This document shows positions 38,736 through 64,000 of a stretch of 64,000 bases of DNA, piece by piece; position 1 is the first letter of the stretch; each line of letters opens with the position of its first letter. Position numbers and translations under genes: made by a program. Source of the stretch: Flavobacterium sp. WC2421 (lineage in GTDB: Bacteria; Bacteroidota; Bacteroidia; Flavobacteriales; Flavobacteriaceae); assembly GCF_040822115.1 (NCBI RefSeq), contig NZ_CP162004.1, positions 3,271,001 through 3,335,000 on the forward strand. The letters are read 5' to 3'. Under the pieces are notes generated by a model. The model made no database searches and had not been told where the DNA came from. It saw only the letters and a program-made list of their open reading frames with translations.

Positions 38736-38809
38736 GGCCTCGTGGCGCAACTGAATAGCGCACTTGATTACGGCTCAAGAGGTTACTGGTTTGAATCCAG
38801 TCGAGGTCA
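38736..38809 (+). tRNA. tRNA-Arg (anticodon ACG)
   Basis: Full cloverleaf: acceptor GGCCTCG/CGAGGTC, D-stem GCGC/GCGC, anticodon stem CTTGA/TCAAG around loop TTACGGC (anticodon ACG, reads CGN with A34 edited to inosine), variable loop AGGTT, T-stem ACTGG/CCAGT with loop TTTGAAT. The discriminator is A; CCA is not encoded. Confidence 0.96.
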
Positions 38810-38810
38810 C

Positions 38811-51727: not shown

Positions 51728-51799
51728 TAAAAGAAACTACCTCTAAAGTTGTTTTTGAGACTGCTACTTTTTATATCTTTATCACTAAATTATTTTTTA

Positions 51800-52891
51800 A
51801 TGATTACATCAAAAATAATCTCAAACGGGATCTTAAGAGCATTACTAACTATTGTAATAATATGTTGTGTTTTGTATTTTTTATATGAAATACAAACTGT
51901 AATTCTCTATTTGTGTATTTCACTCATCCTTTGTTTAATCGCAAACCCATTTCTCTTATTTTTAAATCAAAGACTTAAATTCAAAAAAATATTTGCAACA
52001 ATAACAACCTTGTTACTATTTGTATTTATACTTGTAGGTTTTGTACTTCTTTTTGTCCCACTTATCATTTCACAAGCAGAAAACTTATCCCTATTAGATA
52101 CTAATTTACTTCAAAGTCAACTTACAATATTAGAACATAATATAGAAAACTACTTTAACATACATAATTTAGATCTACAAGGAATCTTAAATAACTCCAA
52201 TTTGTCTTCTAAGATTAATTATAATTTTTTTACTGACTTTATCAATACAATAATTAATCTTGTTGCTGGGTTTGGGATGGGATTAGCATCTGTTTTCTTT
52301 ATTACTTTTTTCTTTTTAAAGGACCAGAAAATTTTTAAGGAAAAAGCAAAAAAAATACTTCCAGATTCCAATGAAGAAAAAATTCTAAACTCAGTTGAAA
52401 AAATAAATCAGTTACTCACTAGGTATTTTATTGGTCTACTGGTTCAATTGACTGTAGTATTTATACTTTATTTCATAGTTCTAATCATTTTTGGAAGTAA
52501 GAATGCTTTTATTATTGCATTCTTATGTGCCCTACTAAACGTAATTCCTTATATAGGCCCTATAATAGCTACAGTTTTATCAGCCATACTAACACTTATC
52601 AGTGCTATTGGAACCGATTTTAAAACTGAAATGCTTCCTACAACAATATATGTAGTAATTGGTTTTCTCATTGTTCAAATTTTAGATAATAACATCAGCC
52701 AGCCCATCATTTTTTCAAAAAGTGTTAAGTCACATCCATTAGAAATATTTTTGGTCACGCTAATTAGCGGAATAACTTTTGGAATTTTCGGGATGGTCGT
52801 GGCAATCCCTATTTATACAATTATGAAAGTTATCGCCAAGGAATTTTTCCCAAACAACAAAATCGTGTCTGTTTTAACTGAAAAAATATAA
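51800..52891 (+). CDS. AI-2E family transporter
   Basis: 363 residues from ATG at 51800; a TTG at 51749 would add 17 residues. About eight membrane segments, starting with GILRALLTIVIICCVLYFLY, plus a soluble loop in the first half. The family motif FLCALLNVIPYIGPIIATVL is near 245 and QILDNNISQPIIFSKSV near 300. It is a distant paralogue of the gene at 20258. Substrate unknown. The end is two bases from the next start. Confidence 0.85.
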   Translation: MITSKIISNGILRALLTIVIICCVLYFLYEIQTVILYLCISLILCLIANPFLLFLNQRLKFKKIFATITTLLLFVFILVGFVLLFVPLIISQAENLSLLDTNLLQSQLTILEHNIENYFNIHNLDLQGILNNSNLSSKINYNFFTDFINTIINLVAGFGMGLASVFFITFFFLKDQKIFKEKAKKILPDSNEEKILNSVEKINQLLTRYFIGLLVQLTVVFILYFIVLIIFGSKNAFIIAFLCALLNVIPYIGPIIATVLSAILTLISAIGTDFKTEMLPTTIYVVIGFLIVQILDNNISQPIIFSKSVKSHPLEIFLVTLISGITFGIFGMVVAIPIYTIMKVIAKEFFPNNKIVSVLTEKI

Positions 52892-52893
52892 AA

Positions 52894-54072
52894 TTGCAAC
52901 ATTCCATTTTAGATACTGAAATTCAAGAATTTATTGACAAAAATTTAGAAGTACCAATTTCAAAATTAGCGCTTCAAAGAAACCCTTTTCCTACTATTGA
53001 ATGGATTACAATTTTGAATCAAATAGAAGCCAAAACAAAATCAAAAGATAAATTACCAACTTGGTTTAACACTAAAAATATAATTTACCCTAGCAAAATT
53101 TCTGTTGAACAAACCTCATCTGAAAAAACAGCAGTTTACAAGAGTACTTTAGTTTCAGGAGAAAAGTTAATTGATCTTACAGGTGGTTTTGGTGTCGATG
53201 ATTATTATTTTGCAAAAAAAATTACAGCGGTCACTCATTGTGAAATTAATCCCGAACTTTCATCTATTGTTAAACATAATTTTGAGCAATTAAATACTAA
53301 AAATATTAGTTGTTATGCAGCTGACAGTTTAGAGACCTTAAAATCATTTAATAGCAAATGGGATTGGATATATATTGACCCTTCAAGACGCAACGATGCC
53401 AAAGGAAAAGTTTTTATGCTTAAAGATTGTTTGCCAAATGTTCCTGATAATCTTGATTATTATTTTAAAAACTCAAATGCTATTCTTATAAAAACAGCCC
53501 CTTTACTTGATCTATCAGCCGGATTATCGGAATTAAAGCATGTACAAACAATCCATATTGTAGCTGTTGACAATGAAGTAAAAGAATTATTATGGGAATT
53601 ACACAAAGACTACCTTGGGGAAACAACTATTAAAACAGTTAATATTCTAAAAGATAAAACAGACTTTTTTGAATTTGTTTTCAATAAACAAGGCGTCATT
53701 CCAAGTTACGCCTTACCTCAAAAATATTTGTACGAACCCAATAGTGCAATAATGAAATCAGGAGGGTTTGATGAAATTGCTGTTTTTTTTAGTTTAAATA
53801 AATTACATAAACATTCTCATTTATACACTTCTCAAGAAAAAATAGATTTTCCTGGTAGAATTTTTCTAATTCAAAACTGCTTTTCTTATAGCAAAACAGA
53901 AATGAAAAACTTTCTATCCAACACTAAAGCCAACATCACTACTCGTAATTTTCCAGATACAGTCGAAACCATTCGAAAAAAATGGAAAATAAAAGAAGGT
54001 GGGAATATATATTGTTTTTTTACTACTGATGAAAATAACAATAAAATAGTTTTAATTTGCAACAAAATATAA
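52894..54072 (+). CDS. SAM-dependent methyltransferase with THUMP-like C-terminus
   Basis: 392 residues, apparently starting at TTG (52894), two bases after the transporter stop; no nearby ATG in frame fits. Residues ~95-230 are a Rossmann methyltransferase: LIDLTGGFGVDDYYFAK near 95 (SAM loop), CEINPELSSIVKHN near 118 and DWIYIDPSRRNDAKGKVFML near 160 in the place of the catalytic DPP(R/Y). The C-terminal ~80 residues resemble the THUMP-like domain. Methylation target, possibly RNA, is unknown. Confidence 0.82.
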   Translation: MQHSILDTEIQEFIDKNLEVPISKLALQRNPFPTIEWITILNQIEAKTKSKDKLPTWFNTKNIIYPSKISVEQTSSEKTAVYKSTLVSGEKLIDLTGGFGVDDYYFAKKITAVTHCEINPELSSIVKHNFEQLNTKNISCYAADSLETLKSFNSKWDWIYIDPSRRNDAKGKVFMLKDCLPNVPDNLDYYFKNSNAILIKTAPLLDLSAGLSELKHVQTIHIVAVDNEVKELLWELHKDYLGETTIKTVNILKDKTDFFEFVFNKQGVIPSYALPQKYLYEPNSAIMKSGGFDEIAVFFSLNKLHKHSHLYTSQEKIDFPGRIFLIQNCFSYSKTEMKNFLSNTKANITTRNFPDTVETIRKKWKIKEGGNIYCFFTTDENNNKIVLICNKI

Positions 54073-54076
54073 TAAA

Positions 54077-54643
54077 ATGAAACAACTAATTGTAATAGCA
54101 TTCTTCTTATTTACTGGAAATTTATTTGCTCAAACACCTTGTGATTATAGCTCAAACGTCACTGACTCCATAGGAACTTACAAATCGACCAAAGAATACT
54201 TAATGAGTGAGAAAATTTTTGCCGGAAACTCCAGTTATATTTTTTATTCATTGGCATTAACCGACGGATTGCCAACATTAAATGTGCAACTCATTCAAAA
54301 AAGTAAAGGCTTTCTTAAAGCAAATTGCTTTGATAAAAATTCAAAATTATTCTTACAATTAAATAATGGTAAAATAATTACCATGATACATATCGATCAA
54401 GAAAATTGTGGAACTATGCTTAGAGATGAGAATGGTTTTGACAATCGGGTAACCTCTGGAATATTTATGTTTATGAAAGGAAGTTTAGAAGACTTAAAAA
54501 GCTCACCATTTTCGATGATGAGAATAAAATATTTAACGGAAAGTGAGGACTATGTAATTAGGAAAGAGTTTAAATCAGAACTAAACAGTCAAGTGTATGA
54601 ACCTGATACGTATTTCATCAAAAACTTACGTTGTGTAGAATAA
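54077..54643 (+). CDS. Secreted protein of unknown function
   Basis: 188 residues with signal peptide MKQLIVIAFFLFTGNLFAQ. Mature protein is mixed alpha/beta with four Cys, including SLALTDGLPTLNVQLIQK, NGKIITMIHIDQENCGT and MFMKGSLEDLKSSPFSMMRI. No family recognised. The chain ends RCVE; the last five codons and stop form the left arm of a perfect inverted repeat whose right arm encodes the end of the convergent dipeptidase. It starts four bases after the methyltransferase and is probably in the same transcript. Confidence 0.75.
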   Translation: MKQLIVIAFFLFTGNLFAQTPCDYSSNVTDSIGTYKSTKEYLMSEKIFAGNSSYIFYSLALTDGLPTLNVQLIQKSKGFLKANCFDKNSKLFLQLNNGKIITMIHIDQENCGTMLRDENGFDNRVTSGIFMFMKGSLEDLKSSPFSMMRIKYLTESEDYVIRKEFKSELNSQVYEPDTYFIKNLRCVE

Positions 54644-54661
54644 ATAATTATTCTACACAAC
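54630..54661. terminator. Bidirectional hairpin built from both convergent stop regions
   Basis: Perfect 14-base arms GTTGTGTAGAATAA (54630-54643) and TTATTCTACACAAC (54648-54661) around a four-base loop. Each arm ends exactly at a stop codon, so the hairpin encodes the CVE C-termini of both genes. No long T run follows, so it may act as an mRNA end-protector. Confidence 0.75.
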
Positions 54662-55313
54662 TCCATTTTACGTTGGATACTTTATCATTTAAAGCCGATT
54701 TTAAATTATAATGCCACCATTCTGAATCAAAGGAATTGAAATTAGCTTTTACCATTACTCTTTTTAGCAGTTTCCTGTTATTAATAACTTTTTTTGAAAG
54801 ATTAGAATAACCATGACTGGCTTCTTCTCCAAAAAAATCAAAAGGAGTTCCCATTTCAAGTTCTTTTCCGCTACGCTTGTCAACTAAAGTGATATCTACT
54901 GCACCTCCTCTATTATGGATTGATCCTTTACTTGGATCAGCAACATATTTTGGATTGGAAACTATTTGCCACATCTTTTTTTGAATATCTAAAGGCCTGT
55001 AACAATCAAAGAATTTAATTCTATATCCTTGATCCATGAACAATTTATTAGCTTCTATGATTGCATTTACCGTTTTCATTCTTAGAAAACACTCGGCACA
55101 ATCATACACTTTGGCTTTTAAAAAATTATCCTCGGTAGCATATTTCATATCATAAGCAAAATCAGTACTATAATCCTTTAAATTTACAAATGTGGTGTCG
55201 TTTACTAGTACTATATCTTTTATCTGTTTGTTAGGAATAGCAACTTGTGCTTTACAAGAAATAAATAATAAAAAGAAACCTATTAAAAAACCAAGTTTAA
55301 AAGAAGAATTCAT
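54648..55313 (-). CDS. D-alanyl-D-alanine dipeptidase (VanX-like, M15D)
   Basis: 221 residues from ATG at 55313 (MNSSFKLGFLIGFFLLFISC, a lipoprotein signal with lipobox ISC); the longer frame upstream adds ten non-signal residues. Zinc ligands in the motif SIHNRGGAVDITLVD near 120 (SxHxxGxAxD), and the catalytic Glu and third His in DSEWWHYNLKS near 200. RIKFFDCYRPLDIQKKMW near 80 has the substrate Arg. The enzymes cleave D-Ala-D-Ala; without VanHA genes nearby this is probably a peptidoglycan dipeptide recycling enzyme. Convergent with the secreted protein gene. Confidence 0.92.
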   Translation of the reverse strand: MNSSFKLGFLIGFFLLFISCKAQVAIPNKQIKDIVLVNDTTFVNLKDYSTDFAYDMKYATEDNFLKAKVYDCAECFLRMKTVNAIIEANKLFMDQGYRIKFFDCYRPLDIQKKMWQIVSNPKYVADPSKGSIHNRGGAVDITLVDKRSGKELEMGTPFDFFGEEASHGYSNLSKKVINNRKLLKRVMVKANFNSFDSEWWHYNLKSALNDKVSNVKWSCVE

Positions 55314-55365
55314 AAATATATTTTTTTTATAAAAATAAAACATTTGAAGTGATTTAAATAGTAAA

Positions 55366-55421: not shown

Positions 55422-58400
55422 TTATTTTTTTAAAACTTTTTGACTTATCATTCCTTTATTAGTATTAATTTTTACAATATAAGTTCCTCGTTGTACATTG
55501 AAAGGAATTTCAATTGTATCTAAACCTGATAAATTGTCAACTCCAATTAATTTTTGACCAAGAATGTTATATATTGAAACTTCATCAATTATTACATCTG
55601 CTTTTTTAGTTATATTTATCTTCTTTTCCAAGTCATTATTATAAATCAATAAATTCGAATTCTTTAATTCATTCTTTTCAACAGCAAGCGTCTTAGCCGT
55701 TTCAAATGTTAATTCAAATCGATTGTTATAAGATCCTGCAACTAAATCAATTTCAGCAGTCCCATTTGTGATATCGTAATAAGTAGATGTTTCTTTATCA
55801 TGAATACTTATATTAGTATTTGAAGGTAAGAATTCTACTGCATCAATCATAAACTGAACAGCTCCTGGTGTATCAACTACAACTCCCAACGGATATGTTT
55901 TTGATGTGTCAAACGATCCAACTCCTTGTATAGTATATTCTAAATTATTAATTAAAAAATAAGAATCATTATCTTGAGTGTCAATTTGATATGCATCGTA
56001 CCCTACGTCTACACCATCGGTTGCGTACTCATTCATAAATCCTATAAGTAATTCTCTGTGGAATTTATTAACGGTGTTAAAGCCCAATCTAATTTTAGTG
56101 TTATAATTATTATATACGATATCATTACTATTATCATTAAAATGATCTGTTTTTTTAGTTTTATTTGAAACACTATTCTTAAATAAAGTATTAGAAATTG
56201 GAACTGACAAATCATCCACGTCACTTTCTTTAACAAAAGCCCGTTGATTATTATTAAAGATAATTGGTTCTGAAGTACCAATACTCACATCTCCATTTAC
56301 AAAAAAACCTTGTCCAACCGGAATATACTGGTATGAAATTTTAGTACTGGTACCCACACCACTAATCCCCACCGGCGCAACTGGGGCAACCCCTCCTACT
56401 AAAGTCAATGTCGCGTATCCTCCTGTATAACCTGACAATATATGAGTGCCATTGCTAGGGGAATGTTGCCAAAAATAAAGCGTTCCATCAATTATATTTA
56501 CCGAATTATTTCCTCCATTTGCAACAGAAATGTTGTCTCTTATAAACTCAAAAGCATCTAAAGCAGAAGGATAAGGATTACCTACCAAAAATAAATTATC
56601 TGCCAAAACCGTATTGCTATTTATTAATCCATTAAAAGGTTTTCCCTTAAATGTATAATTTTGGGTAGATCCAGAAACACCAGCTCCTTTTAATGTAAAT
56701 CCTTGAGAAGGTCGAATGGGATCCGTTTCAATAAAATGAATCCAATTAGCATATTCAGAACCGTTTTCAAATTTATACAACCAATACCTTGCAAGGCTTA
56801 AAGGGGATGCACTACCATCATAACCAGAAACCCAATTAATCGCTAACGGAGTTGTTGTAGTTCCATCTTTAAAAACACCATCTACGGTATAGTTATTATT
56901 AATTGCCGTACCATTTATAGGTCCTACAGGAGAAGACCAATAGTTATAATTATATTTATTTACCGTTCCTTGTTGGTCTCTTTTTATAAAACCTATGCTT
57001 GAAACATCGAGCTCACTATTCAAAGTTTGAACTAATTGGGATTGCCCAGTTAAATCTATTAAACCATCCAATTTTAAATAATGTGAAATTTGTATTTTAG
57101 TATCGTTATTAATTGATAATTTTTTATAAGTAGTTGCGTCTGTACCTTCCACAAACAATCCTAAAACTGTTTTATTTCCGGTAGAAGTTACATTATGTTT
57201 AATTTTTACAATGTTTCCATTTACTGTTAGTCCAACATTAACAATTGAAACTGCATTAGGAATAGTTTGAATTGCGCCATTTTTCCAAATAGACGAATCG
57301 TTCCATGCACCGTCAGCGATAGTTTCATAGGGCAATGGAGCGGTTTGAACCCCAGCTATAATTTTATTTTTATTTAGATATTTGATTCTTAAAAAATTTC
57401 GTTCATCTGTCAATCCTTCAATGGTTGTTCCATAAAATGTATTAAAATCATAATAGGCTTTTAATGTAGTCCAAGGAATTGATTTAATCTCATTACTGGA
57501 AATATTATGTGGTAATATGGCACCATCAGCAGTATTATCAACAAATTTATTAATTTCCTGATTCATCAAATAATTGAGTTGATTTGATGTTAATGCCGTA
57601 TCCCAGATATGAATTTCATCAATTTCACCATAAAATGGAGTTCTAATATCGTTTTTATTTACATAAAGTGCACCTACAGAATATCTTGAATAATTAGGTG
57701 TTGGATTTTGAAGATTAAAAGTGGATGAATCCAATACTCCATCTATATAAAGATCTGCACTACCTAGATAGTAAATTGCTACTATATTATGCCATTTTCC
57801 ATCTGCAACTGCAGTATTTGAAACAAATTTCAAACTACCGTCCCATAAAGCTTCAATTTTATTAGCGGAATTTAATCGTAATTCTAAATTAATTCCTTTA
57901 CTCATTATGGTTTTATTAGCAGCTACTGTACCGTCATTTCTCAACCAAAAACCAATAGTAAAAGAACCACTATTAAGATTCAAAGCATACTCACCTACTA
58001 AAAAATTACTAGCTCCAATACTTACCAATTCTTTAGATTCAACTTTAGGCACTTTACCAAAAGTGAAATACTTAGTTCCGTCAAAATCATACCAAGTTTG
58101 TAAATTACCATTACCATCGGATTTTAGTGGAATTACATCAACTATGTCGCCATCATTAAACGCACTATTGTCACTAACAATCAATGCATATTCTTCTGTT
58201 GCTAATTTTGAAAATGCACTAAAAGCTGCTACCGGAATCCCAACAAATACATTCCCAACATCTCCTCCAGTTTCTACCACTTTCCATTTTTTATTAATTT
58301 TAGTTACTGAACTAGTTAAACCAGTACGTATTGTTGTAACATTTGAACTACCCGCAGAATAAGTACCGTTATCTGAACCCCAAACTAAAAAATTTTTATC

Positions 58401-60239
58401 TATTACAAATTCATTGATATTAGCACTATTGGTACTTGCAATGACCCCTAAACCAATTGTTACCTCATTATTGTCATTGGAACTTCTTGATTGTTTTTGA
58501 TATAAATCTGATGCTATATCTCTACCTATTCCAGCAATGTTATAATTAAAACCTGCATTTGAAGTACTATTCCAAATGATTCCCCCAGCAGAATTAATAT
58601 AATCTTTACTTGTACCATTAATTCCTAAAGTAATTCCATATTTTATAGCAAGATATGTTTCAATCTTTGGACGATTCCCATCTAAAACACGAGAAGCATA
58701 TGATAATATTTCTGCGACCCTACCATTTAGATTCCCATAATTCGTCCCGCTATTTATATTTTTACCAATATTATATGGAGTACCTTTCCAAGTTGATCCA
58801 TCAAGATAACCCAAATTAGAAAAGCTAACACTTGAACTAACCAAAGTTCCAACTGTATTTGTATTAAACAGTAAATCGACACCATCTGAAGCAGTAGTTG
58901 TTTTATTTCTAGTATTGATTATTCCTGCTTTAGAATAATTCCCTATTACGTCTCCAGTACTAAAATAAGGAGTAGTCGTAGTTGTTTGCCATTGATTAAA
59001 CCATAATCTTTCATTGGTTAAACGAGTTGAAAAATTTCCAAATCCAATTCCAGTATGTTCACCTGAAATTATAGGATAAGATGGGTTTGCTGCCGAAGTT
59101 CCTGAAATAATTGTCATAGGCGATGTAGATCCATCAATAGTAACATCTGGCTCCATTACTATAAAAGTTTCATGGGTATAATATCCATTATCAATATTGT
59201 ATAAAAATTGACTAATTCCTGAACCATCATTTTGAAATTTCACAACAGGATTGTAATTTATATTGCCACTGGCTGCATCAATAAAAGTGGGCTGATTTGC
59301 AATCGTAGTTTGTGACGCATCTTTTCCAAGAGATCCTAAATCCTTCCATAAAGGGATCTTTACCCCAGTAGCTAAATTAACTCCTCTTGTAGCTTTAAGC
59401 CAAAGTCTAAAATCAGGATTTCCTCCTCCCGGACCTGTTATAGTTGGGTCATATCCTTCACCACTCACAACATAAGTGTAAATAGGATTTGCAGAATCAT
59501 TACTAGGAATTGAAATAATAGCTTCTTTAGTACCAGTTGATTGTGGTGTGAATTTCACCATCAAATACGCAACACCACCTGGATTTATTGTAGTTGCAGT
59601 AAGAAGTACTATTGAGAAATCTGCTGATTGTACTCCAGTTGAAGGGTTATAACCAAAACAAGTTAAACTCCCCAATATCAAAGGACAAGTTCCTGTATTA
59701 ACGATTGCATACGTTCTTGAAGCAGATGCTCCCACAGTAACCGTTCCAAATAAGGTTCCAGTAGCCGAAGTAGGTACTGTTTGTCCATTAGAAATTGGCT
59801 GTGTTGGCGTTCCTCCTAAAACTGAAATAGAAGGTCTATTATCAAAACTTACCGTAAAAGAAAAAAGTCCAATATTTGAATCTATAGTAATAACAGAAGA
59901 ACCTGTACCACAACTATACGAATTCCTTTTTATTTTAAATTTACCAACATCTCCTTTTTTAATTTTATCATCAGAAATGTAAGGAATAGACGAAATAACA
60001 AAATTTAAATTGCTAGAAGAAATACTTTGAATATTTAAAGTAGGATTTCCATTTGTAGGGATATTGGTTACTGAAAACTCAATTTCACCAGATAAACCAA
60101 AGGCTACAGACCCGCCATTTGAAATATTGATTGCAGGACTACCATAACTTACATTTATAGTTGCTGTTTGTGCAAAATTAATTAATGAACTAAGTAACAA
60201 AATTATAAAAAAAAGTTTTTTGAGTAATTTTAACTTCAT
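55422..60239 (-). CDS. Giant T9SS-secreted LamG/choice-of-anchor protein
   Basis: 1605 residues. Signal peptide (MKLKLLKKLFFIILLLSSLINFAQ) precedes an N-terminal beta region. A choice-of-anchor D/ASPM-HYDIN-like Ig unit (~130-260) has GTVTVGASASRTYAIVNTG and PGGVAYLMVKFTPQSTGTKE. A LamG-like unit (~275-540) has DFRLWLKATRGVNLATG and IETYLAIKYGITLGINGTS. A conserved stretch follows with IAGIGRDIASDLYQKQSRS near 570, and a second LamG (~750-905) has KWHNIVAIYYLGSADLYIDG. The C-terminus is a type A T9SS sorting domain: DEVSIYNILGQKLIGVDN, FNVQRGTYIVKINTNKGM, ISQKVLKK. It is probably anchored at the cell surface or released. It is the last chromosomal gene before the tRNA junction. Confidence 0.86.
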   Translation of the reverse strand: MKLKLLKKLFFIILLLSSLINFAQTATINVSYGSPAINISNGGSVAFGLSGEIEFSVTNIPTNGNPTLNIQSISSSNLNFVISSIPYISDDKIKKGDVGKFKIKRNSYSCGTGSSVITIDSNIGLFSFTVSFDNRPSISVLGGTPTQPISNGQTVPTSATGTLFGTVTVGASASRTYAIVNTGTCPLILGSLTCFGYNPSTGVQSADFSIVLLTATTINPGGVAYLMVKFTPQSTGTKEAIISIPSNDSANPIYTYVVSGEGYDPTITGPGGGNPDFRLWLKATRGVNLATGVKIPLWKDLGSLGKDASQTTIANQPTFIDAASGNINYNPVVKFQNDGSGISQFLYNIDNGYYTHETFIVMEPDVTIDGSTSPMTIISGTSAANPSYPIISGEHTGIGFGNFSTRLTNERLWFNQWQTTTTTPYFSTGDVIGNYSKAGIINTRNKTTTASDGVDLLFNTNTVGTLVSSSVSFSNLGYLDGSTWKGTPYNIGKNINSGTNYGNLNGRVAEILSYASRVLDGNRPKIETYLAIKYGITLGINGTSKDYINSAGGIIWNSTSNAGFNYNIAGIGRDIASDLYQKQSRSSNDNNEVTIGLGVIASTNSANINEFVIDKNFLVWGSDNGTYSAGSSNVTTIRTGLTSSVTKINKKWKVVETGGDVGNVFVGIPVAAFSAFSKLATEEYALIVSDNSAFNDGDIVDVIPLKSDGNGNLQTWYDFDGTKYFTFGKVPKVESKELVSIGASNFLVGEYALNLNSGSFTIGFWLRNDGTVAANKTIMSKGINLELRLNSANKIEALWDGSLKFVSNTAVADGKWHNIVAIYYLGSADLYIDGVLDSSTFNLQNPTPNYSRYSVGALYVNKNDIRTPFYGEIDEIHIWDTALTSNQLNYLMNQEINKFVDNTADGAILPHNISSNEIKSIPWTTLKAYYDFNTFYGTTIEGLTDERNFLRIKYLNKNKIIAGVQTAPLPYETIADGAWNDSSIWKNGAIQTIPNAVSIVNVGLTVNGNIVKIKHNVTSTGNKTVLGLFVEGTDATTYKKLSINNDTKIQISHYLKLDGLIDLTGQSQLVQTLNSELDVSSIGFIKRDQQGTVNKYNYNYWSSPVGPINGTAINNNYTVDGVFKDGTTTTPLAINWVSGYDGSASPLSLARYWLYKFENGSEYANWIHFIETDPIRPSQGFTLKGAGVSGSTQNYTFKGKPFNGLINSNTVLADNLFLVGNPYPSALDAFEFIRDNISVANGGNNSVNIIDGTLYFWQHSPSNGTHILSGYTGGYATLTLVGGVAPVAPVGISGVGTSTKISYQYIPVGQGFFVNGDVSIGTSEPIIFNNNQRAFVKESDVDDLSVPISNTLFKNSVSNKTKKTDHFNDNSNDIVYNNYNTKIRLGFNTVNKFHRELLIGFMNEYATDGVDVGYDAYQIDTQDNDSYFLINNLEYTIQGVGSFDTSKTYPLGVVVDTPGAVQFMIDAVEFLPSNTNISIHDKETSTYYDITNGTAEIDLVAGSYNNRFELTFETAKTLAVEKNELKNSNLLIYNNDLEKKINITKKADVIIDEVSIYNILGQKLIGVDNLSGLDTIEIPFNVQRGTYIVKINTNKGMISQKVLKK

Positions 60240-60465: not shown

Positions 60466-60510
60466 AAAAACCCTTGTAAAATACTGACTACTAGTATTAT
60501 ACAAGGGTAA
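60466..60510 (-). terminator. Native terminator of the truncated tRNA-Arg(TCT)
   Basis: On the minus strand ACCCTTGTA ... TACAAGGGT with an inner AATACT/AGTATT stem, then seven T. It lies just downstream of the tRNA 3' end and belongs to the chromosomal side. Confidence 0.82.
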
Positions 60511-60515
60511 TTAAG

Positions 60516-60572
60516 TGAAGGCAGAAGGATTCGAACCTTCGACCGCCTGCTTAGAAGGCAGGTGCTCTATCC
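60516..60572 (-). pseudogene. 3' fragment of tRNA-Arg (TCT), probable att site
   Basis: On the minus strand GGATAGAGC (D-loop/D-stem 3' arm), anticodon stem-loop CCTGC-CTTCTAA-GCAGG (anticodon TCT), variable loop, T-arm GAAGG-TTCGAAT-CCTTC and the 3' acceptor strand TGCCTTC with discriminator A are intact. The 5' acceptor (expected GAAGGCA) and 5' D-stem (GCTC) are missing: upstream reads TTCAAGGGTTTAGAA. A 3' half with its own terminator but no 5' half is the standard remnant left by an element integrated into a tRNA gene. Confidence 0.85.
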
Positions 60573-60620
60573 TTCTAAACCCTTGAAAACAGTACATTTA
60601 TTAATTTTCATTAGGAGATG

Positions 60621-60638
60621 TGCAAACTATATGCAAAC
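60621..60638 (+). repeat. Paired TGCAAAC direct repeats next to the att site
   Basis: TGCAAAC at 60621-60627 and 60632-60638, 11 bases apart (one helical turn), 49 bases from the tRNA fragment. They are possible arm-type recombinase or excisionase binding sites (inference). Confidence 0.4.
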
Positions 60639-60679
60639 AAAAACCTAGTTAAATAATTTTATTGTTAAACTTGATCCAA

Positions 60680-61309
60680 ATGTATTCTATTTTTTCAAAA
60701 CAAAAAAAGAAAAAAAAGAAAGCTCTACAAATTGAGGAAATGATGAACGAGAATGGAGGGAAGAATAACCGACTGAAAGTGAAGAATGCACTCTAAATTT
60801 GCTTGTATTTTTTATCTTAGAACAAAATAGGCTTGTTTGGAATAACAACCCCAAGCACCGCAGTAAAAAATGGAATTTTTATGGAATTTTTTATGAGGAG
60901 CGATGTGGCGTTGTTGCGGCAAATGACCAGTAGCCTCAGGATGGGAATAGAACGAAGTTTACGGAGTGATATGTAATACTGAGAGCGTTTCGTTGGGAAA
61001 AAATAAACAACAGCGTAGCGTTCCTTAATTTAATGCAAAGTGATAACGGAGCAAACCCAACTGCTGGTCATAGGAGCAACCGCTGAATTAACATGGGGCG
61101 AAATACAACAATACTGCTTTAATGTAGTAGAACGGAATAAAGCTGTATTTTGGATTTAGTAGCCCCTACGAACGAAGGAAGTGATTGTGTGGAATGATGA
61201 ACAAACAGCTGAAATAATAGCTGCTTATTTTCAAGCTGCTTTTATTTTGTGCTGTGAAGTGTTCTTTGGAATGGAAGGAAGAATGACTGACTGGAAAAGC
61301 ATCATGTAA
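60680..61309 (+). other. Cluster of short plus-strand ORFs, unrecognised, possibly decayed
   Basis: Four short frames: 60680-60796 (38 aa, Lys-rich start, ends NNRLKVKNAL), 60881-60976 (31 aa, MEFFMRSDVALLRQM...), 61040-61159 (39 aa from GTG, QTQLLVIGATAELTWGE), and 61163-61309 (48 aa, no start codon at its head, EQTAEIIAAYFQAAFIL). The last two share a reading frame and are separated only by two TAG codons, so they may be parts of one broken gene. Composition is less A+T-rich than the flanks. No family recognised. The rest of 60573-61711 shows no feature that I can support apart from the repeats beside the tRNA; 61400-61711 is strongly A+T-rich. Confidence 0.3.
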
Positions 61310-61711
61310 CAAAATGAACGACCAAAGTGAGACCGCTTGATTGCACGTGATAAGAAAACTTAACTAATTTAATGATAAATTGTAATTACGTCCACAAAAT
61401 AAACTTAGGGGATGGGTCGAATGTAAAAATATCATCAGGGGGGCATTGTTGGGAGTACTATACTTTTTCCTTCATATAGAAAAAGAAAAAATAAAGAAAA
61501 AAAATTATAATTTATAACTGAACTGATTATACATTTTAACCAATAATTTATTTAGTTATTTTTATTAAAATTGATTAAAAGAGCAATTAATGCTATATTA
61601 AAATATTGCAACACACTCTTAGTTATTCTATAGAAAGGAATATTTTAAAGGGTGTATGTATACTGCTTGAGTTTAATATTCGAAATAAAAGTTAAATTTA
61701 AAACAAGCCTA

Positions 61712-64000
61712 TCATTTCAAATTTTTAATATAAGGTTGTAAAGCTTTTTCAAACTTTGGAAGATTTAAAACTAAAAATTCATTCATTATTTCCCAATCTG
61801 ATTCATTAAATAAGTTGACCTCTTGTTTTTCTATTTTGATACGACTCATTTTATTTTCAGGGAGTTCTTCCCAAAAAAATGTACTACCAAACTCTTGTTC
61901 TATTACTTCTTTGTTTTTATGTAGTTTCTTAAAGTACATTTTGTTTATTTCTTTACTTGATGTAAGAATGGATAATTCAATTCTTACATAAGATTTAGTT
62001 GCAACAAATGCAAATGAGACTCCTGCAGTACCTGCCCCTGAAGCTATCCAGTGGTCTTTAGATGCATTTACATTAGCAAATAAGGCAGTATTTTTTATTA
62101 ATGGCAATAGTTGTTGCCAATACCTTTTTCTAACATTGAAACGATTTGGTTCTGATTCGTTACCATTTCCTGAAGAATATTTGATTAATAAGTCCTCCTC
62201 CATTTCAAACAAGGTAAGCAATCTTTTTAAACTACTAAACTTGTTATTACTATCCATGTTAGCTTCAACAAACCATCCGTTAATTACTTCTTGCGGAGAT
62301 CTAAAATCAGATGTGTTTCTTGTTATTTTGAAAACCTCTTGATTATTCACCAATAATTGTGAATTCTTTTCATAAAGGCTTCTAATTACATAAACATACA
62401 TTTGGGAAACTGTATCCTCTTCAATTTTAGTATTTTCAAAAATAAAATATTCTAGTTTTTTATTCTTTGGACTTTCAGTATCAAATATGTTTTGTTCATC
62501 TAAAGAATCTTCATTTTCAAGAATTACAACATCAGGGTATTCCCATATTTTTAAAAACCTATTATAAATTCTTTTTAAGCGGTCTTCATATTTGGAAACA
62601 TCCCAATTGTCTATTGTTTGTAGGTAAGAGTTCAACCACAGTCTACTGTACTTATAACCTTGTGCACCTTCATCTTTATTCATTTCTTTTTTAGCTAGAA
62701 ATGATTTATTACTTAGCGTTCCATTATTTCCTGAAAGCGTAAGATTACCAATGGTATTTAAATGTTTTTCCTTGAATAAAAAATACTCTTCTGATGATAA
62801 ATCAGTACTCCAAACTTCATTTGGGTTTCTTGGGAAGATGTGTTCTATTGTAATATTTTCATTTGTAGTATTTACATGTTCTCGGTTGTTGTAGTTCTCG
62901 AGCATTTCAAACAGATAATTTCTGTTTTTTGGCTGGGTGTTGTACAAATCCTTATCCTTTAAAGCTGTTTTAATATCTTCATTGCTAGGGAATTTGGCAC
63001 TTCCTTTCTTTTTAACTAACACTTTAGCAATAGAGTCATAATATTCCTCTGTATCTACCTCAGCATACAGGCTCATAAATATTTTATTTAAGGCATTAGT
63101 TGGTAAACCTACAACAAACCTTCTCCAAGCGTAGCTTTGAATCAATTTCAGGACTTTTATTAAATCCTCTTTGCTTAGCAAACCATTTTCTGCATCCTCA
63201 AATACTTGCAATAAAAAAGGGTAGGCTACATTTATTTCTAAACGATTGATGTATTCTAATTCTTTCCTGATGCTTGCATCTGAAACTGTCGATGGGTTTA
63301 CTAATTTTTTATAGTGAATTGATAATGATTTTATGTTTTCTAATTCCTGATGGTAAGCCTCTTCTTTTTTGTTTGAATACAGACTTTTAAACTCCGCGTA
63401 CACCTTATTTTTATTGGGTATTTTCTTGTTGCGTAGTGTTAGGTAATCTCTGATAAATTCTGAAACCAAAGAGCTTTGTTTTATTAGGTCTTTAGCATTT
63501 TCTTCGATAGGGTTCCATATGGTTTCAAAAATTCTATTTTGGTCTTTTGGAGGTAAGTCCATTAAAATGAAATTACGAATCAAATCTGATTGGGATAAAT
63601 CTAATCCTGTTGAATTTAAACTCTCAAAAATACGCTGGGGATCGTCTTTGTCTCTTTCTAATGAAATTTCTACAAATATTAATCGATTTAAACCTCTTAG
63701 AATCACTTCAAAATTATCTTCGTTGATAGCGCTTCTGAAATAGTTGTAATTCTCAATCACATTTGAGAATGTACCAAATTCATTTTGTGTCCCTCGCATT
63801 ATGGCTTGAAATGCTAATGAATTCGTATCTGTTTGTTTTAGCTTTAACTTGCTTGATTCATTTTGAACATATTGATTGGTCAAAAACATATTGTACAATC
63901 TGTCAGCATCCTGTGGTTTACTGTTTTCTTTTGCAAAACGATACAATGCCACATACAAAATATTGATAGTAGTCAATCGTTGTTGTCCATCTATAATTAC
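61712..64000 (-). CDS. DUF262-DUF1524-DUF4268 protein (GmrSD-like), N-terminus cut by the window edge
   Basis: At least 762 residues; the frame is open to base 64000, so the true start lies outside. At the right edge the translation reads VIIDGQQRLTTINIL, the DUF262 (GmrS/ParB-like NTPase) motif, so little of DUF262 before this is missing. DUF262 continues to ~residue 260 (FVEISLERDKDDPQRIFESLN, LDLSQSDLIRNFIL). DUF1524 (GmrD, HNH nuclease) has IEHIFPRNPNEVW and HLNTIGNLTLSGNNG at about 62,600-62,860. The last ~110 residues resemble DUF4268 (SYVRIELSILTSSKEIN, WEELPENKMSRIKI). GmrSD enzymes are type IV restriction systems against modified phage DNA. This fusion sits beside a tRNA integration scar, which supports a defence role (inference). 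Confidence 0.87.
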   Translation of the reverse strand, partial: VIIDGQQRLTTINILYVALYRFAKENSKPQDADRLYNMFLTNQYVQNESSKLKLKQTDTNSLAFQAIMRGTQNEFGTFSNVIENYNYFRSAINEDNFEVILRGLNRLIFVEISLERDKDDPQRIFESLNSTGLDLSQSDLIRNFILMDLPPKDQNRIFETIWNPIEENAKDLIKQSSLVSEFIRDYLTLRNKKIPNKNKVYAEFKSLYSNKKEEAYHQELENIKSLSIHYKKLVNPSTVSDASIRKELEYINRLEINVAYPFLLQVFEDAENGLLSKEDLIKVLKLIQSYAWRRFVVGLPTNALNKIFMSLYAEVDTEEYYDSIAKVLVKKKGSAKFPSNEDIKTALKDKDLYNTQPKNRNYLFEMLENYNNREHVNTTNENITIEHIFPRNPNEVWSTDLSSEEYFLFKEKHLNTIGNLTLSGNNGTLSNKSFLAKKEMNKDEGAQGYKYSRLWLNSYLQTIDNWDVSKYEDRLKRIYNRFLKIWEYPDVVILENEDSLDEQNIFDTESPKNKKLEYFIFENTKIEEDTVSQMYVYVIRSLYEKNSQLLVNNQEVFKITRNTSDFRSPQEVINGWFVEANMDSNNKFSSLKRLLTLFEMEEDLLIKYSSGNGNESEPNRFNVRKRYWQQLLPLIKNTALFANVNASKDHWIASGAGTAGVSFAFVATKSYVRIELSILTSSKEINKMYFKKLHKNKEVIEQEFGSTFFWEELPENKMSRIKIEKQEVNLFNESDWEIMNEFLVLNLPKFEKALQPYIKNLK

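Follow-up and report, generated by a model that had tools for sequence, protein, structure and literature searches.

A putative large structured RNA just inside one end of a tRNA-Arg(TCT)-integrated genomic island in Flavobacterium

Riemerella anatipestifer, a member of the order Flavobacteriales, carries the closest characterised case that we found for the genomic island of Flavobacterium sp. WC2421 described here. Its 10K island occupies 10 kb beside an Arg-tRNA gene, has a 53-bp perfect repeat as attL and attR and a tyrosine integrase beside the tRNA, and excises to a circle (PMC6764341). A second point of comparison is offered by GOLLD and ROOL, large, elaborately paired RNAs of unknown function that are found on phages and prophages, often near tRNA genes (PMC12286853). 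Our locus lies toward the right end of a 64,000-nucleotide stretch of the WC2421 genome, a single 3.83-Mb contig (the window; G000:C1:3271001-3335000, G000 being this genome), and continues beyond it; features outside the window are given in the numbering of L003, which reaches past the right window edge and equals window position minus 59000. Window positions 60513-60572 very probably form one end of an 11,591-bp integrative island, in which a large structured RNA is encoded a short way in from that end. The island is like 10K in its size, its place beside an Arg-tRNA, its perfect repeat and its tRNA-proximal integrase, but it has another repeat sequence, and the word noncoding occurs nowhere in the main text of PMC6764341.

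The left end consists of the 3′ part of a tRNA-Arg(TCT) on the minus strand (60513-60572), running from the D-loop, where this copy is cut, to the 3′ end and including the anticodon TCT. The tRNA model of Rfam aligns to 60524-60581(-) with 40 bits over model positions 9-63 of 71 only, so that the 5′ acceptor strand is missing, and ARAGORN calls no tRNA at 60513-60572. With as many as three mismatches allowed, a 56-base pattern from the 3′ part of the tRNA is found twice across the whole 3.83 Mb, both times exactly (window 60517-60572(-) and genome 3343108-3343163(-)), while its reversed control has no match; chance is therefore excluded as the origin of the repeat. The two sites belong to a perfect direct repeat of 60 bp (window 60513-60572 and G000:C1:3343104-3343163) with a copy-to-copy distance of 11,591 bp. 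The right copy lies inside an intact tRNA-Arg(TCT) (L003:13106-13180(-)), about 8.1 kb past the window's right edge and adjoined by tRNA-Pro and tRNA-Ser in a tRNA cluster. A first-pass annotation, made from the letters of the window alone, had placed the D-loop-to-3′-end fragment at 60516-60572, slightly short of the shared stretch, had noted the loss of its 5′ acceptor strand, and had predicted an element running right past 64000 to an intact tRNA-Arg(TCT) at its far end. Each of these points is borne out, and the second copy that it proposed to look for is the single further exact one, 11,591 bp to the right. It missed the more important find, the large structured RNA that lies immediately to the right of the scar.

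Structure, probable promoter and likely strand of the RNA

The RNA block spans 60806-61350 on the plus strand (about 545 nt) as delimited by a covarying alignment and, at its start, by a promoter box. Between 60240 and 61711 there is no open reading frame (ORF) of at least 60 amino acids, and G+C is 0.32-0.48 in 100-base windows of 60850-61399 as against 0.14-0.24 at 60600-60749 and 61450-61799. The box, TAnnTTTG at 60794-60801(+), matches the -7 element of the main sigma factor (sigmaA) described for F. psychrophilum (PMC9723704). It is the probable promoter of the RNA and would place the start near 60806.

We aligned 33 copies of the block after dropping those whose model match starts after position 140 or ends before 660, as well as identical copies; the first profile left out L104 and L106. 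Removal of one further row (L076) gave the 32-row alignment A4, and a second alignment, A2, covers the central domain (33 sequences, 41 pairs). The consensus structure of A4 contains 79 pairs, and for 50 of them one or more sequences differ at both positions yet retain the pairing. RNAalifold scores A4 at -67.8, compared with -8.9 +/- 3.5 in 20 column shuffles within conservation classes (17 standard deviations below), and finds 40 covarying pairs where the shuffles reach at most 5. In A2, 96.9% of cells pair, and none of 500 shuffles attains the observed value on any of five measures. Because shuffling ignores relatedness, the weight is carried by a partner-slide control, in which pairing in A2 falls to 29-47%, and by the number of pair types, illustrated by one A2 pair that is CG in 12 sequences, AU in 9, UA in 8 and GC in 4. 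Compensatory change at these levels, relative to the controls, is that of a conserved structured RNA.

A larger set of 74 distinct near-complete copies, all of which start by position 120, contain no N and differ from one another near the 3′ end, points the same way: 24 of the 40 strongest covarying column pairs are canonical at the 85% level or above, compared with 13.6% of all pairs. These canonical pairs mark helices that lie, in window coordinates, at 60856-60867/60890-60900, 60923-60932/61062-61071, 60935-60948/60971-60983, 60994-60998/61055-61059, 61013/61019, 61097-61112/61147-61164, 61218-61225/61234-61241 and 61266-61267/61296-61297.

Several results pull in the other direction. The remaining 16 of the top 40 column pairs are not canonical at the 85% level, and folding of the single sequence is unexceptional (z of -1.1 on the plus and -1.5 on the minus strand), so the signal comes from the alignment only. 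Only 26 of 80 copies have the strict box close to their start, compared with none of 80 for a control window, a tally in which some contigs are counted twice, and a terminator-like hairpin within the block at about 61218-61241 makes the 3′ end of the RNA uncertain. Among the 33 aligned copies, 20 extend far enough upstream to reach the box, and 13 have it in its strict form in the same column. We consider it highly likely that the RNA is real as a conserved structure.

Could the block instead act as DNA, as a recombination slot, a transfer origin or a hairpin-forming, transposon-like repeat that enables cargo to be swapped by homologous recombination? It is frequently placed where conserved ends give way to variable cargo, and an A-rich direct repeat of 33 nt, 73% identical, lies near both of its ends (60683-60715 and 61459-61491). 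Read by eye, 60753-60790, upstream of the promoter box, resembles the RNA's own 3′ segment at 61268-61300, a likeness that recurs in several copies starting at model position 2 and would fit tandem recombination between RNA genes. Covarying base pairs that span long distances and form multibranched structures are hard to reconcile with such a role, as are the purine-rich strand with its promoter-like box in a fixed column and the outcome of the repeat search, which found no long repeat at the block ends apart from the A-rich one. The plus strand also has more G.U (as DNA, G.T) than A.C: 77 against 20 where a pair is predicted on both strands, and 281 against 182 across helices picked strand-blind. 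We consider a DNA element unlikely.

The surplus of G.U over A.C also identifies the plus strand as the likely functional RNA. If the block were a 3′ untranslated region or a long leader of minus-strand messages, the functional RNA would be the opposite strand, an arrangement with which the gene order is compatible: the first gene to the right is directed toward the RNA in 91 of 102 cases and the first gene to the left away from it in 66 of 81, both with some contigs counted twice, and a DUF6943 gene in another layout begins about 44 nt past the block's left end. No DUF6943 gene is present in this island or in other loci compared, however, and the consensus folds far better on the plus strand, both in A4 (RNAalifold, -67.8 against -44.0) and in a separate strand comparison (-56.0 against -27.4). 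Minus-strand function is thus very unlikely in our judgment.

Distribution of the RNA and its relation to known families

The WC2421 genome holds three copies of the RNA in all, the island copy and two paralogues. By blastn the block is found in 94 of 199 same-genus genomes, a tally that overstates the RNA because many rows match only its A-rich first 35 bases; we therefore used the aligned copies instead. A covariance model of the central domain matches 1 of 249 family genomes (our own) and 4 of 247 phylum genomes (our own included), all of the same genus, in searches run with stricter filters that may miss distant relatives. A degenerate 3′-end pattern matched 103 stretches in 84,980 species genomes. 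The 80 of these that were listed come from 56 assemblies, with titles that nearly always give Flavobacterium, Flavobacteriaceae or another Bacteroidota name; four listed rows titled Bifidobacterium or Rhizobium are taken to be mis-titled metagenome bins. The covariance model confirms 71 matches in 68 of the 80 listed loci. Many carrier species have names that hint at cold habitats (frigoris, fryxellicola, gillisiae, psychrotolerans, xinjiangense and others), which may reflect phylogeny only.

The 74 near-complete RNA copies are nearly all in Flavobacterium, and many lie beside integrases or defence-like cargo. Three layouts recur. The first, that of our island, runs repeat, arm site, RNA, cargo, integrase, arm site, repeat. 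Within the clade of the island's integrase, an RNA copy lies beyond the integrase in five of the six genomes whose contig is long enough (G000, G101, G143, G147 and G194); the contig of G116 ends. In the second, the RNA stands beside DUF6943 and DUF5675 genes, and its neighbours (L085:3442-7827, L086:4102-7831) also include a 251-amino-acid family without a Pfam match and a small membrane-like protein. The third places a diverged or partial RNA beside two tyrosine recombinases and a CHC2/Toprim primase-like protein, with a helix-turn-helix-like gene in most cases (L106:2598-4967; L114/L154, L128, L137, L187), and is a different element type carrying the same RNA. We scanned 118 of the 142 neighbouring proteins collected and tallied the first 25 Pfam and PADLOC families each. 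Those listed include type I restriction, pAgo, AbiD, AbiEii, MADS, PD-T4-6, SoFic, nSTAND3 and SWI2/SNF2, each in at most 3 of the 118 proteins, together with integrases (6) and unrelated families such as Fib_succ_major (5), all as tallies per family.

The bond between the RNA and this kind of island is loosened by two counts. A sister island in the same tRNA, in G057, lacks the RNA; and most RNA copies lie off this integrase clade, a tyrosine integrase being found by hidden Markov model in 11 of 23 RNA-containing stretches. The sister island also shows that the RNA is not needed for integration, and we rejected a role as part of the integration machinery on this basis.

Comparison with known families returned little. 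Across the block, a search of Rfam 15 at E up to 1 gives a single match, S15-leader at 61190-61240, scoring 20.1 bits where the gathering score is 39.5 (E 0.25), which is at chance level and absent when six copies of the RNA are searched. GOLLD, ROOL and OLE have no covariance-model match over the block, and no description of the block was found in the published papers searched, a search limited to papers other than preprints. With neither a family match nor a description, the RNA has apparently not been described before. It might still be a known large RNA (GOLLD, ROOL, OLE, a group I or II intron, or omegaRNA/HEARO) too diverged for Rfam, and its length and setting are similar to those of large RNAs on mobile elements, often near tRNAs (PMC12286853). 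Neither the window nor the six copies gave a match to any of them with E up to 1, and we regard this identity as highly improbable. The RNA also differs from GOLLD and ROOL in where it is carried: it resides in Flavobacterium genomes, with no match to the degenerate 3′-end pattern in the viral collection and no blastn match to one RNA copy in the plasmid and phage collections.

We favour a GOLLD/ROOL-like accessory RNA of mobile elements, because the RNA occurs in several element types, is dispensable for integration and seemingly stands alone with its own promoter. Transcribed rightward from that sigmaA promoter, it would act as a trans-acting or structural RNA that travels with elements, and it may serve the element or its cargo, through maintenance or control of cargo expression. 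On the wider proposal we are evenly divided: that the RNA represents a new class of large, ornate RNA in bacteria (about 545 nt, with some eight covarying helices) spread in Flavobacterium by integrase islands and cargo slots, and that, as a mobile-element counterpart of the phage-borne GOLLD and ROOL, it works as an independent RNA machine, which might be an assembly made of RNA only or might regulate island or defence cargo. Few bacterial RNAs of such size and complexity are known, and GOLLD and ROOL, on mobile DNA, are still without a known function. An additional family with dozens of variants in cultured flavobacteria, three of them in this genome, often neighbouring integrases or phage-defence cargo within islands whose ends are defined, would make the role of such RNAs directly testable.

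Ends, insertion site and cargo of the island

From the right repeat leftward, the island encodes an integrase, a DUF1643 protein, a type IIG enzyme, a 373-amino-acid protein and a GmrSD/DUF4268 protein. The tyrosine integrase (407 amino acids; L003:11727-12950(-)) lies beside the intact tRNA and matches Arm-DNA-bind_5 and Phage_int_SAM_5 above the Pfam cut-offs. Its match to the catalytic Phage_integrase domain, at 24.7 bits, stays below the cut-off of 27.1, a weak point, but residues R349, H372 and Y382 are kept in at least nine of ten aligned integrases, this one included. Paired TTTGCA-type motifs occur near both repeats of the island, on the left at 60619-60637, and at both ends of the sister element in G057. 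They are probable integrase arm sites, a reading that fits the enzyme's arm-binding domain. In G000, G194 and G101, whose islands sit at three different tRNAs, 72 bp separate the left arm motif from the RNA block.

The insertion site was compared among relatives. A tRNA-Ser-Pro-Arg query matches all 199 same-genus genomes searched, and 16 stretches around the match were taken for comparison of gene order. Five of them (G007, G029, G129, G010 and G017) show an empty site: homologues of the genes at window 51749-55343, which in WC2421 lie left of the scar, come immediately after the intact tRNA. The rest contain other inserts (for example about 15 kb in G178) or no readable synteny. The G057 sister island has a 69-bp repeat, an integrase 63% identical to ours and other cargo. 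Relatives of the integrase at E of at most 1e-60 are found in 7 of the 199 genomes, beside tRNA-Arg in four (G000, G057, G116 and G143), at tRNA-Met in G194 (73-bp repeat), and at tRNA-Asn in G101 (repeat of at least 80 bp). In G147 the site is probably tRNA-Asn as well, the contig stopping short of a second repeat.

With its direct repeat, its integrase and an empty site in relatives, the element is a tRNA-integrated genomic island with a tyrosine recombinase, as the first-pass annotation had read the scar; neither the absence of an intact downstream tRNA nor the same fragment and flanks in element-free strains, which it had named as refuting outcomes, was encountered. Leftover segmental duplication or decay of a second tRNA gene, with no mobile element, might be suggested by the same-genus genomes G175 and G004 (L051 and L052), where two part copies of tRNA-Arg lie only 177 and 191 bp from each other with no long insert between them, perhaps what excised or decayed elements have left behind, but is scarcely credible for WC2421 given the integrase beside the intact tRNA, the perfect 60-bp repeat, the empty sites and the sister element with other cargo. 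In the proposed mechanism, the integrase would bind the arm motifs and recombine the tRNA repeat; insertion would then restore a complete tRNA at the right end, with the fragment remaining at the left, and excision would release a circle and re-form a single clean tRNA.

The left flank is less simple. Downstream of the tRNA fragment, an inverted repeat at 60470-60508(-), with 16-nt arms that are 94% complementary, is followed by a T-run in the tRNA direction and resembles a terminator. The earlier suggestion of a terminator beside the fragment holds to this extent; that it is the tRNA's native one is unconfirmed, since the sequence after tRNA-Arg(TCT) and its hairpins is variable in the 13 relatives compared and the restored tRNA at the right end comes with a different hairpin of its own. 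The scar is separated from the first syntenic gene by a gene for a 1605-amino-acid secreted, lectin-domain, adhesin-like protein (55422-60239; Laminin_G_3 domain and a weak match to a Por secretion tail) with no homologue in the 16 same-genus stretches. The flank therefore has its own history and is not a plain ancestral neighbour; the gene is possibly a further insertion at the same hotspot.

The cargo includes restriction genes. The type IIG restriction-methylation enzyme (1211 amino acids) matches PADLOC REase_MTase_IIG with 780 bits and in this resembles Eco57I/MmeI-like restriction-modification systems. The 836-amino-acid protein next to the RNA (61712 to 64000 and on to L003:5222, minus strand) matches GmrSD_N (126.6 bits; cut-off 33.2), GmrSD_C (67.1 bits; cut-off 23) and DUF4268 above the curated Pfam cut-offs, as well as the PADLOC Orf5, HEC-06, PDC-S11 and type IV models, and is a candidate modification-dependent nuclease. 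It is like the type IV GmrSD enzymes, but carries a C-terminal DUF4268 fusion, and the type IIG gene is separated from it by the gene for the 373-amino-acid protein, which has no match in Pfam, PADLOC, NCBIfam or PDB. The DUF1643 protein (186 amino acids) lies in the right part of the island, leftward of the integrase. Pfam finds no relaxase or conjugation genes among the five non-overlapping island ORFs of at least 186 amino acids, and with no transfer genes among these five proteins we rejected an integrative and conjugative or mobilizable element. The island is an ordinary tRNA-restoring integrative element with restriction cargo, and a clean example of its kind.

A second noncoding block, with G+C above its flanks, lies between the DUF1643 and integrase genes (L003:11340-11715). 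Among the 199 same-genus genomes it has copies in G147 only (88% and 83%), and it is possibly another RNA. Elsewhere in the window, an intact tRNA-Arg(ACG) at 38736-38810 is the sole tRNA called by ARAGORN.

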